DNA of 64,000 nucleotides, taken from contig JABSOZ010000012.1 of the NCBI GenBank assembly GCA_013215295.1, forward strand, positions 62,001 through 126,000. The letters are read 5' to 3'. Shown piece by piece: positions 6,841 to 24,660 of this stretch (position 1 is its first letter; each line of letters starts with the position of its first letter). The translations under genes and the position numbers were made by a program. A model generated the notes under the pieces. The model was given only the letters and a program-made list of their open reading frames with translations. It did not search any database and had not been told where the DNA came from. Source of the stretch: Colwellia sp. GTDB taxonomy: Bacteria; Pseudomonadota; Gammaproteobacteria; Enterobacterales; Alteromonadaceae.

Positions 6841-6938
6841 AACAAAAAGCCCGAATATTGCTATTCTGGCTTTATTTTAAATGGTTATTTATTAAATAGA
6901 GTAAAACTCTCTATTTATTACATCATGCCGCCCACACC
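6841..6938 (-). repeat. groL 3'-end copy A (outermost attachment-site-like repeat)
   Basis: The segment repeats the groL terminator region and the last codons of groL (true copy at 22941-23039) in the same orientation. It has a hairpin AAAGCCCGAATA-TTGC-TATTCTGGCTTT with one mismatched pair, a shared ttaaatggtta, then the core TTACATCATGCCGCCCA at 6918-6934. Homology stops a few bases after the core. It fits the displaced original chromosome end of an integration site at groL. Confidence 0.75.
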
Positions 6939-7433
6939 AACATAACGAATTGAATTAAAAGCAAAATAAAATTATTTACTTTAAAACACCCGGTATTATA
7001 CCCTTAATTTGTTGACGCTCAGTAATAACTGATTTATTGCCCATGAATTAAATTTAGCTTTTAAACTTTCAACAACTATAACTGACTATATTTATGAAGC
7101 ATAGCGTGTGAAAATCGGTTTCAGACTGAACAAACCTACAACTTAAAATAAAAAAAATTGAATCATTAATGCCTAGTAAACGTTAATTTTTTCACATTGA
7201 CGACGGTAGTTTTGAGTGAAATTAAGTACCCATCCTCAAAAGTGGGCATTAGCACCAGTTAAGGTTAGATAAAATAGAGTTAATACCCTAATTATCAACA
7301 CTTTTCAATATGACAAATAAAAAACAGATCTAGCTATAACCTGCCATACTTTGACCATACTTTGACCATACTTAGAAATATTCATAGTTTTATTTTTACC
7401 CTTCAAAAGGTATTTATTTTCTCGGTGATTTAT

Positions 7434-8456
7434 ATGACTGGAACGAACAAAAAGAATAGCTTTCGCCAATTTTATCTAGCCATTGTGACTGTTTTATTAA
7501 TTATTAGCGCACTGACCTATAACTATTCAGATCGAACTAAAGAAGAGCTTATTACAATTGGAATTTCTCGCTGGGGGAGTAATCCAGAATTTGGCTTGAG
7601 TGTCGAGGGGTTTAAACAGAGCTTGACTGAAAGTGGCTACATTGAAGGGAAAAATATAGAATATATAGTCAAAAACTCTGAAACCCAGTTAAATCAGCAG
7701 CGTCAAATCATTCAATCTTTTATCGATGCCAAAGTTGACCTAATATATTCGCTCACGACCCCTGGCACACTGATCGCAAAACAAATGACAGAAAAAATGG
7801 ATCAGCCCATTCCAGTAGTATTTTCAATATGCACTTATCCGGTAGAGTCCAATCTTATCGCCTCTTTAAAGTCATCTAAAAATCATTTGGTAGGTACCCG
7901 TAATTTCGTACCTTTCTCACAACAGTATTATATTTTTGAAAGAATCTTTCCCCATACTAAAACCCTCGCAGTGGTTCATCGTGAAGGAGAGCCCAACTCG
8001 AGCAACCAATTTAAAATCGTTAAATCACTACTCGCTAAGCGTGACATCAATGTTATTGATATAGCGGCAGTCGACTTAGAAGATATTAAAAATCAACTTG
8101 AAACCAATAAAGGGCTGTTTGACTCCATATATTCGACTTGTGATACTTTAACCCACGCCGGTGGAGAAGAAATTATCGTCGAATTTAGCAAACGAAATCA
8201 TATTCCCACTTTTGCCTGTAATAAAGAAGGAGTTCTAAAAGGACATTTGGTCGGTAATATCGGAGACTTTAAAAGCATTGCGAAAATATCGGGTGAAAAA
8301 GCCGCGCTGATCCTCAAAGGCGCCAAACCTGCTTGGTTAAGAACAGAATCACCAAGAGAAAACTATATCATTATTAACCAGAAAACCGCATCTGAGATCA
8401 ATATTGTCATTCCACAAGACGTTTTAAATGATGCCAAAGAAATTATTACTGAGTAA
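7434..8456 (+). CDS. Substrate-binding protein of the ABC_sub_bind type, membrane-anchored
   Basis: A 340-residue periplasmic binding protein of the TrpX-like family (PF04392). An N-terminal hydrophobic segment (FYLAIVTVLLIISALTY) gives export or anchoring. Lobe 1 reads ITIGISRWGSNPEF, GFKQSLTESGYIEGKNI and DLIYSLTTPGTLIAKQ; lobe 2 contains HREGEPNSS and FDSIYSTCDTLTHAGGEEI. I chose ATG at 7434, preceded by GGTGA 6 bases upstream; an upstream TTG at 7362 would add an unlikely leader. There is no permease or ATPase gene beside it. Instead a hybrid histidine kinase begins 5 bp downstream, so the protein probably presents its ligand to the kinase, as TorT does for TorS. That role is inference from gene order and kinase architecture. 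Confidence 0.85.
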   Translation: MTGTNKKNSFRQFYLAIVTVLLIISALTYNYSDRTKEELITIGISRWGSNPEFGLSVEGFKQSLTESGYIEGKNIEYIVKNSETQLNQQRQIIQSFIDAKVDLIYSLTTPGTLIAKQMTEKMDQPIPVVFSICTYPVESNLIASLKSSKNHLVGTRNFVPFSQQYYIFERIFPHTKTLAVVHREGEPNSSNQFKIVKSLLAKRDINVIDIAAVDLEDIKNQLETNKGLFDSIYSTCDTLTHAGGEEIIVEFSKRNHIPTFACNKEGVLKGHLVGNIGDFKSIAKISGEKAALILKGAKPAWLRTESPRENYIIINQKTASEINIVIPQDVLNDAKEIITE

Positions 8457-8461
8457 TCACA

Positions 8462-22945: not shown

Positions 22946-22975
22946 AAAAGCCCAAATATTGCTATTTGGGCTTTT
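22946..22975 (-). terminator. groL terminator
   Basis: AAAAGCCCAAATA-TTGC-TATTTGGGCTTTT: a 13-bp stem followed by T-rich DNA on the minus strand, 42 bases past the groL stop. A degenerate copy is at 6844-6873. Confidence 0.85.
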
Positions 22976-23016
22976 CTTTAAATGGTTAAAGCTACAGTAA
23001 TAGAGTTAAAACTCTA

Positions 23017-23034
23017 TTACATCATGCCGCCCAT
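23017..23034 (-). repeat. groL 3' end, reference copy of the repeated core
   Basis: TTACATCATGCCGCCCAT on the plus strand is the groL stop codon plus the codons for M-G-G-M-M. Copies occur at 6918, 11444 and 16181, making it the putative integration target. Confidence 0.75.
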
Positions 23035-24660
23035 GCCACCCATACCGCCCATATCAGGCATAGCAGGAGCGCCAGCATCTTTCACTGGAGCGTCTGTGAT
23101 CATAGCTTCAGTTGTTAGCATTAAGCCGGCTACAGAAGCAGCAAACTGTAATGCGCTACGTGTCACTTTAGTTGGGTCAAGAATACCCATTGCTAACATA
23201 TCGCCGTAAGTAGAGTTACCTGCGTTGTAACCGAAGTTGCCTGTGCCGTTACGAACTTCGTTTAATACGACTGAAGGTTCGTCACCACAGTTGGCTACTA
23301 TTTGACGAAGTGGTGCTTCCATTGCGCGAATAGCAACGTTAATACCGTGTGTTTGATCTTCATTAGAACCTTCAAGATTCTTGATTAGGTCAGCAGCGCG
23401 AATTAAAGCAACACCACCACCAGCAACAACACCTTCTTCTACTGCAGCGCGCGTTGCATGTAATGCATCTTCAACACGTGATTTTTTCTCTTTCATTTCA
23501 ATTTCAGTTGCAGCGCCAATTTTAATTACCGCAACACCGCCCGCTAATTTAGCTAAACGTTCTTGTAATTTTTCTTTGTCGTAATCTGAAGATGAGTCTT
23601 CGATTTGACCGCGAATTTGACTAACGCGTCCTTGAATATCGGCTTCTTCACCAATTCCATCAATAATCGTTGTGTTATCTTTAGTGATAACAACACGTTT
23701 AGCTTGACCTAAATCTTCTAATGTCGCTTTTTCAAGTTCCATACCGATTTCTTCAGAAATTACCGTACCACCGGTTAATGTTGCGATGTCTTGTAACATT
23801 GCTTTACGACGGTCACCAAAACCAGGTGCTTTAACAGCAGCAACTTTAACGATGCCACGCATGTTGTTTACCACTAATGTTGCAAGTGCTTCGCCTTCAA
23901 CATCTTCAGCAATAATTAATAACGGCTTACCCGCTTTAGCAACGCCTTCTAATGTAGAAAGTAATTCACGAATGTTGCCAACTTTTTTGTCTACTAATAA
24001 AATGAATGGGTTTTCTAATTCAACCGCTCCATTTTCTTGATTGTTGATGAAGTAAGGAGATAAATAACCGCGGTCAAACTGCATACCTTCAACAACGTCT
24101 AATTCGTCAGTTAATGCTTGGCCTTCTTCAACTGTAATTACGCCTTCAGTGCCTACTTTGTCCATTGCAGTTGCAATGATTTTACCAACAGTTTCGTCAG
24201 AGTTAGCAGAGATAGTACCTACTTGTTCAATCGCTTTGTTATCGCTACATTCTTGCGATAAACCTTTAAGTGCTTCAACAGCAGCGATAACTGCTTTGTC
24301 GATACCACGTTTAAGATCCATTGGATTCATGCCCGCTGCAATAGATTTCAAGCCTTCGTTAACAATAGCTTGTGCTAAAACAGTTGCTGTAGTTGTACCG
24401 TCACCGGCTTCATCATTGGCTTTAGAAGCAACTTCTTTCAGCATTTGAGCGCCCATGTTTTCGAATTTGTCTTCTAATTCGATTTCTTTCGCAACAGTAA
24501 CACCATCTTTAGTGATGATTGGACCACCAAAAGATTTGTCTAATACGACGTTACGACCTTTTGGGCCTAATGTTACTTTTACAGCGTCAGCTAATACATT
24601 TACGCCACGTAGCATTTTTGCTCGTGCGTCATTACCAAATAATACGTCTTTTGCAGCCAT
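23017..24660 (-). CDS. groL: Chaperonin GroEL
   Basis: A 547-residue GroEL of standard length. It starts [20 protein letters not shown] and has the ATP-binding [12 protein letters not shown] and [11 protein letters not shown], the apical-domain substrate-binding region, and the C-terminal GGM repeats ending [11 protein letters not shown]. Two heptameric rings fold non-native proteins with GroES and ATP in the cytoplasm. It follows groES in one operon with a 128-bp gap. The repetitive open frames on the opposite strand are shadows caused by codon bias. Its 3' end is the apparent target of repeated element insertion. Confidence 0.99.

Follow-up and report, generated by a model that had tools for sequence, protein, structure and literature searches.

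Why does the DNA behind a chaperonin gene carry further copies of the very end of that gene? The question is raised by groL of Colwellia sp. (assembly GCA_013215295.1), which lies in a stretch of 64,000 nucleotides (contig JABSOZ010000012.1, positions 62,001 to 126,000), here called the window. The gene (23017–24660, − strand) encodes a 547-aa chaperonin, is the single groL match in the genome and is the target gene in the reading proposed here. Its last 18 bases, TTACATCATGCCGCCCAT, are referred to as the core; they encode the conserved C-terminal MGGMM and recur three times downstream in the same orientation. The core search placed all four matches on the + strand, at 6918 (one mismatch, in the last base), 11444 (one mismatch), 16181 and 23017 (both exact). 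On the − strand, on which groL is read, they are copy A (6918–6935, outermost), copy B (11444–11461), copy C (16181–16198) and copy D (23017–23034, the final 18 bases of groL). With core-to-core spacings of 4526, 4737 and 6836 bp, they delimit element 1 (6936–11461, 4.5 kb, between A and B), element 2 (11462–16198, 4.7 kb, between B and C) and element 3 (16199–23034, 6.8 kb, between C and D). The answer we favour, at a probability of about 0.8, is that the groL end is the attachment site (attB) of a clade of P4-type integrases, and that the window holds an array of cis-mobilizable elements (CIMEs) which hitch-hike with groL-specific elements.

The core codes for a conserved end of GroL, and its repeats might be accidental or reflect the structure of groL ends (GGM repeats), with no mobile element involved. 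This is extremely improbable. Only 0.04 chance matches to the core are expected in the window at up to three mismatches, and none of 100 shuffled sequences gave four. In the whole genome (5.77 Mb, up to two mismatches) the core occurs only at these four places, which, together with the expectation of 0.04, rules out chance as the origin of the repeats. The arms, integrases and cargo differences described below also speak against it. The positions and the single strand given in a preliminary description of this DNA, and its remark that the core was seen nowhere else, are thus upheld. A tRNA-associated island was also considered and rejected, since the window yielded neither a tRNA nor a tmRNA gene. 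The flanks of the copies keep traces of groL as well. A groL-type terminator, type T, lies beside copy D (22946–22988, − strand) and beside copy A (6845–6887, − strand), with 88% identity over 43 bp, so that copy A does retain a terminator as had been described. The one beside copy A is taken as older groL flank, and the one beside copy D would be element-borne if crossover takes place in the core. A shared stretch of 340 bp had been assigned to the groL copy and its neighbour; the likeness is real (335 aligned columns, 79% identity), yet it is found to the right of the copies at 11444 and 16181 and not at the groL copy.

The strongest evidence for an attachment site comes from integrases in other genomes. 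G090 encodes an intact 396-aa integrase with PF13356, PF22022 and PF00589 all over the cut-off, i.e. a P4-type enzyme, which starts 226 bp behind the groL stop. When this protein was used as query against 394 genomes of the order (up to four candidates scored per genome, E 1e-60), nine relatives were obtained at 50–100% identity, itself included and one of them with stops (G416), and the next was at 40%. All nine relatives at 50% or more lie beside groL, versus none of the 21 fetched relatives at 40% or less (Fisher p 7e-8). In a tree of 39 integrases (three identical pairs included; five of 44 omitted, one without a match and four of at most 300 aa), the 21 non-groL sequences split off with a support of 1.000. 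Among named genomes, 14 loci encode clade relatives, some in pieces; three or more of these loci (zero tree distance) are already counted in the nine. They come from Agarivorans, four Shewanella, Psychromonas, Psychrosphaera, a Litorilituus metagenome-assembled genome (MAG), two Candidatus Endobugula sertula contigs, and MAGs labelled Pseudomonadales, Spongiibacteraceae, Proteobacteria and Desulfurivibrionaceae. groL is just upstream in 13 of the 14, and the groL of the window is nearest among these to that of the Litorilituus MAG (91% in protein). groL is absent from the 14th locus, where integrase pieces follow a core with distal arm block, the arrangement that a position inside an array would give.

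Phages and plasmids were rejected as a home for the clade. The IMG/VR search gave no confirmed member (53 pattern matches), and at E 1e-60 the best identity to the clade was 39.4% among plasmids and 36.2% among 50,697 phage records. Relaxase genes were found beside the clade integrase in three genomes: a TrwC relaxase with a TrwB-type coupling protein in G177 and G416 (in G416 the integrase is broken), and a MobA/VirD2-type relaxase with a coupling protein in G017. No type IV secretion system was read in the open reading frame (ORF) lists of the relatives. These comparisons indicate that the groL 3' end serves as chromosomal attB for one dedicated clade of tyrosine integrases of P4 type, which have arm-binding, central and catalytic domains. 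P4-type enzymes had been suggested before as the agents of insertion, and they do lie next to groL ends, intact for example in G090. In two relatives, G133 and G251 (loci L115 and L169), the groL integrase is followed in the same order by a second tyrosine recombinase (a Phage_integrase match in G133, by eye in G251) and a resolvase-like protein.

The attachment sites have two arms, whose positions are given here relative to the first core base. In integrase-bearing elements, groL-side sites lie at +146 and +158 in one orientation and at +209, +221 and +232 in the opposite one, and then the integrase starts. In front of the distal core, at about −71, stands a block resembling GGGGTATAAAGTGGGGTATC, with sites at −72 and −60; exact 9-mers have a background rate of 0.003 per 100 bp. 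The groL-side sites were present in 15 of 16 integrase-bearing elements versus one of 18 without a groL integrase (p 2e-7), and in one of two fossils (the window copy; that of G003 stays under the threshold). For these counts, Phage_integrase was scanned for in the whole genomes of G000 (the window genome), G001, G002, G003, G005, G073 and G092, with none between cores, and the integrase status of other loci is taken from clade-integrase searches and ORF-list reading, with partial scans. G537 is among the 18 only in the sense of lacking a groL integrase; one of its proteins, of 194 aa, matches Phage_integrase above the cut-off.

A profile of block and core was trained on 26 ends, including elements 2 and 3 but not element 1. 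Over the window in groL orientation, four places scored above 4, namely the three outer cores (61.0, 56.5 and 45.9) and the groL end (21.4), which has the core but lacks an arm, and the best score on the other strand was 4.2. In a leave-one-out test, 30 of 32 distal ends passed, reached by at most 3 of 1000 same-locus decoys, with a low score for G005; for elements without a groL integrase the figure was 17 of 19. The inner core of G146, as well as G184 and G208, where the block is absent by eye, had been excluded beforehand. Two later-found ends outside the training set scored 32.2 (G027) and 27.7 (G044). No further distal ends lay beyond the outermost cores in nine downstream loci (L147 lies on the other side of groL), and the longer sequence of G005 and G003 did contain such ends, with scores of 27.4 and 41.4. 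In the window, elements 2 and 3 keep their distal arm blocks on the − strand at 11514–11533 (leave-one-out score 27.0) and 16250–16269 (26.7), which no decoy in 1000 reached. The block of element 1 (6985–7004, − strand) is degenerate (14.4; 3 of 1000 decoys). The arm counts suggest that elements without the groL integrase have lost the groL-side arm together with the integrase, while most keep the distal arm and both cores.

Element 1 still shows both sides. Two groL-side sites, each with one mismatch, lie at +213 (11240–11248, + strand) and +148 (11305–11313, − strand) from core B. The integrase fossil noticed earlier left of the copy at 11444 turned out to be two N-terminal pieces of a P4-type integrase (10998–11226, − strand), 75–76% identical to groL-site integrases. 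It holds only part of the N-terminal region, and the catalytic domain is absent. From its sequence, element 1 is thus classed as a dead integrase-bearing element. Elements 2 and 3 are without integrase. The Phage_integrase search of the window genome (all 27 candidates scored) gave no match between cores, and the five largest proteins of the two elements had no match to recombinase, relaxase or coupling families; their smaller ORFs (at most 79 aa) were judged by eye, one being also searched against PADLOC. Cores bound elements 2 and 3 on both sides and the distal arm block is kept, which would amount to retained attL and attR; with neither integration nor transfer genes found, the two fit CIMEs by their sequence. 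Their likeness to intact elements is confined to the arm end, the clade integrase fossil being in element 1. An integrase and relaxase of its own, as in an integrative and mobilizable element (IME), was found in no element of the window: element 1 has the fossil, elements 2 and 3 have none.

The genomes of the same genus show how such arrays may be built. A second downstream core was found in G001 (3.0 kb), G002 (5.9 kb) and G005 (15.7 kb). In G003, most of element 1 (a copy of 7154–11461, 95.3% identical, its outer core missing) directly abuts groL without elements 2 and 3, which makes this locus a natural empty site for these two. G004 has no second core in the 18 kb behind groL, so that five of six genomes carry groL-end elements. 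A conserved gene block begins about 11 kb behind groL in G004. For G001 its distance past the outer core is 8.4 kb; the figure is about 20 kb for the window and 30 kb for G002, and in G005 and G003 the block was not found within 42 kb and 55 kb, respectively. As a comparison of downstream genes among relatives shows, the content between groL and the block varies within the genus. An empty site in which the left flank of copy A abuts groL was looked for and not found. The conserved block is about 20 kb further out than copy A, so this flank (5398–6840) is probably not the ancestral neighbour.

In the order, at least two same-strand core matches at one mismatch occurred in 32 of 394 genomes. The second core was downstream of groL in 22 of these loci on inspection; in nine of the remaining ten it was 638 kb or more away or on a different contig, and G188 (52 kb) was left out. 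With G017, whose own groL end is outside the pattern, the total is at least 23 of 394 genomes, a lower bound. The carriers are G000, G017, G028, G066, G073, G090, G092, G133, G146, G156, G162, G163, G177, G184, G208, G245, G255, G257, G326, G355, G398, G402 and G416. The earlier proposal of successive insertions at the groL 3' end agrees with the clade integrases beside groL elsewhere, the state of G003, the varying gene content and the uniqueness of the core.

Are integrase-less elements only remnants? If decay were the whole explanation, they would be immobile distal leftovers, with the integrase end deleted, passed on vertically. Element 1 shows such decay, and groL-side arms are also absent from elements without the groL integrase (sites in one of 18). 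The identities between genomes make this reading unlikely. Small cassettes lie behind groL without an adjoining integrase-bearing element, among them a 1.04-kb cassette of two genes (ParDE alone, G073) and a 1.64-kb cassette of one gene (a lone DUF4143 protein matching PADLOC PDC-S01, G355 and G028). The G355 and G028 cassettes, from different genera, are 98.2% identical over 1639 positions and end on cores, and the groL genes upstream are 81.6% identical; G537 has an 86% relative of this cassette behind a second core. The ParDE pairs of G073 and G398 are 92.3% identical, versus 78.0% for groL. Element 1 of the window and its copy in G003, another species, are 95.3% identical, versus 86.9% for groL, and share the same breaks in the dead integrase, so the broken state most simply predates the spread. 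Decay explains losses, not transfers. The elements had also been described as having later lost mobility. This is too sweeping for the class as a whole, in which integrase-less elements are seen to have moved in recent times.

The same pair of cassettes bears on homologous recombination of the groL region, for example by natural transformation, in place of site-specific recombination. groL would be a conserved anchor for it, and proximal flanks at times look native. Between G355 and G028, the gain in identity sets in at the groL core and is lost again, down to background, past the outer core: the printed 60-column windows give 68–88% in the last part of groL, 95–100% inside the cassette and 37–54% beyond the outer core. 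These values leave no high-identity tract outside the cores, which largely contradicts homologous recombination for this pair and makes it very unlikely as the general route. A further alternative is that cassettes excise and insert alone, with an integrase supplied from elsewhere in the cell and the distal arm being sufficient. The 1.04-kb and 1.64-kb cassettes lack an adjacent integrase-bearing element, and distal arms are conserved, as it would predict. On the other side, groL-side arms are kept in 15 of 16 integrase-bearing relatives, suggesting that they are needed, and no clade integrase was found in G028 or G355 at E 1e-60. We consider such action in trans improbable, if somewhat less so than decay.

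The hitch-hiking of CIMEs with groL-specific elements may proceed as follows. Each insertion would restore the last groL codons and bring its own terminator (judged by eye), so that the essential groL stays intact. New elements would enter at the groL-side core, and the array would grow outward with the oldest element outermost, which fits G003; elements 2 and 3 would thus have been inserted later, between element 1 and groL. An autonomous groL-specific element would then land next to groL, and its integrase and groL-side arms could recombine with the distal core and arm of the neighbouring CIME. The two would come out together in a single circle whose hybrid attP is complete. Once the circle has been transferred, the autonomous element may move on, and the CIME would be stranded behind groL. 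Composite excision would account for the half-site kept by integrase-less elements and for lone cassettes behind groL. In G255, an integrase element is followed by the groL-side arms of another element; in G133 and at locus L086 it is followed by a type S flank (described below), which may instead be native. As judged from the sequences, the site, the integrase clade, the arm architecture, the missing groL-side half of elements without the groL integrase and the recent spread of element 1 and of cassettes are demonstrated.

Several observations weigh against this account. Some proximal flanks match the outer groL flank, which looks native, and crossover in the core alone does not explain this. 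The near-identity of proximal and outer flanks extends over about 75–240 bp in the window, G001, G005, G163 and G177 (by eye) and suggests conversion between repeats or another event. Other recombinases stand at the core (G146, G184, and a short one in G537), and some cassettes may depend on them. Most distal ends, those of elements 2 and 3 too, were used to train the arm profile; the leave-one-out test is a partial answer to this, its decoys are drawn from the same loci, and two ends failed it, G002 (where the block is closer to the core) and G245. The genus contains no clean empty site, the nearest being G004 with about 2.3 kb extra behind groL and no second core. No relaxase was seen in G133 (two proteins scanned, the rest listed), and reading by eye showed none in G251 and in that part of G090 which was listed. 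The window genome, like G028 and G355, gave no clade integrase in the E 1e-60 search with up to four candidates scored per genome, and excision or a circular form was not seen.

The cargo of the relatives is varied. G092 has a complete Avs4 (L043:11701–16461, − strand; PADLOC 2040 bits) as the sole ORF of at least 80 aa between two groL cores. AbiE was found in G326, a CobW protein in G156, a lipid/polyketide-type cluster in G005, and glutathione-transferase and glutamate-synthase genes in G002. Alginate-type genes were recognised by eye in two groL-end elements (loci L040 and L117), those of G090 (a 53-kb interval, with integrase) and G402 (9.6 kb, no groL integrase). Tentatively, and with somewhat less than even confidence, we suggest that selection rather than decay keeps the distal core and arm half-site of integrase-less cassettes, the groL end then being a platform for toxin-antitoxin, Avs4, AbiE, the DUF4143 candidate defence gene and efflux pumps. 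If so, the half-site would borrow an integrase and the other half from any groL-specific element docking beside groL, which would be a general route for small defence genes to travel without a mobility gene of their own.

Islands with P4-type integrases occur at tRNA genes. The groL-site elements share with them the Arm-DNA-bind_3 and Phage_integrase architecture, and AlpA-type proteins are present in two of them; they differ in the protein-coding target gene and the dedicated clade. A chaperonin gene as attachment site, which the preliminary description called unusual, is already known in staphylococci. Staphylococcal islands are reported to use the groEL 3' end, the final 18 bp of which form part of the att site (e.g. 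SeCISE48; PMC8125051), so the same target seems to have been taken up in distant bacteria. Staphylococcus aureus pathogenicity islands (SaPIs) that share one integrase family are placed between ktrB and groL in PMC11217367. Like the window, SaPIs and other staphylococcal phage-inducible chromosomal islands (PICIs) place an element at the groEL 3' end. They are phage-mobilized satellites of Firmicutes, whereas the present elements are from marine Gammaproteobacteria, use P4-type integrases, include relaxases in some intact forms and form tandem integrase-less cassettes.

CIMEs are described, in the available text of PMC5704250, as lacking integration and transfer genes, having att sites and being stacked behind or beside integrase-bearing elements, and the accretion model is established there. 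Compared with such tandems of CIMEs with integrative and conjugative elements (ICEs) or IMEs, the groL arrays have another target, cassettes of one or two genes, and the distal arm half alone kept. Dehalococcoides islands stand in tandem behind the single-copy ssrA gene with 20-bp repeats, and 15 of them, without integration module, are possibly cis-mobilizable, as far as the accessible part of PMC3146451 tells; they differ by a serine-recombinase module, a tmRNA gene as target and reductive dehalogenase cargo. In the available portions of PMC2491623, PMC2764856, PMC3338528 and PMC12189769, groEL/groL is mentioned as gene or protein only. The literature searched, in partial texts and with subscription journals largely outside it, contained no account of integration at groL in Gammaproteobacteria. 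Such a simple genomic address, behind an essential gene that is easy to recognise, would allow mobile cargo, including defence genes, to be read in many marine Gammaproteobacteria, and a known site lets annotators delimit integrase-less islands that are otherwise easily missed. It also offers a testable idea for movement without integrase: to retain one att half and complete it with the half of a neighbour.

The cargo of the window elements is as follows. Element 1 encodes a substrate-binding protein (7362–8456, + strand) and a hybrid histidine kinase (8462–10486, + strand). Element 2 encodes a PF00144 serine hydrolase (13421–14839, − strand), which is far under the cut-offs of class C beta-lactamase models, and two pairs of a regulator and a small membrane protein on the − strand, at 11952–12191 with 12146–12559 and, by eye, at 14912–15136 with 15133–15318. 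The pairs are two diverged copies and flank the hydrolase gene on either side. Among the matches listed for element 2, the region of the first pair recurs at 84–85% in G326 and G502; most remaining ones are short and to its two regulator genes, and several hit its ends at groL-linked places. Of five such end-match places examined, those in G027 and G044 include another core whose distal arm is strong, those in G050 and G042 show no second core within 9–10 kb, and the one in G052, without groL, is described below. The end common to elements 2 and 3, searched in the own genome at up to three mismatches, gave only the element 2 place. Element 3, with an RND-type efflux operon, encodes an RND efflux permease (16632–19787), a membrane fusion protein (19788–20942) and an AraC-type regulator (21207–22412), all on the − strand. 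A near-perfect palindrome (20-nt arms, 95%) at 16587–16622, just downstream of the permease gene, is probably its terminator.

Two further flank types were met right of cores. Type S, which by eye holds a long imperfect inverted repeat, occurs in L034, L109, L044, L115, L086 and L180, from several genera. A dispersed repeat as its cause was rejected: in seven genomes searched, the matches (in four of the seven) were all groL-linked. G050 has this flank behind groL with one core in the stretch read, and type S may be the native flank in some lineages. Type K has relatives in five single-core genomes, so that it was dropped as a cassette-specific end and is probably also a native flank; a cassette carrying it is clear for the G355/G028 pair only. 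At L181 (G052:C79:57500–68333), a perfect core lies about 1 kb from the contig end and groL was not found in that stretch; perhaps the assembly breaks at the repeat, or this is an outer core.

Other recombinases and motifs were seen at the core. G146 has a protein with DUF6538 and Phage_integrase (L105:5022–6275, − strand) at the far end of an element at the groL core. A relative of this integrase by similarity is at the far end of the element in G208 (L108:5449–6741, − strand), and TGTAGACA repeats were noticed by eye near the cores of both. Directly behind groL, G184 encodes a 479-aa protein with a Phage_int_SAM_5 match (L107:9263–10702, − strand), which may represent a third type of recombinase. 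A segment of 8.4 kb behind groL in G257 (L168:4229–12673) holds sugar-utilization genes by eye and ends in a perfect core, which is preceded by two TTTAGGGTGTT repeats, possibly another arm motif.

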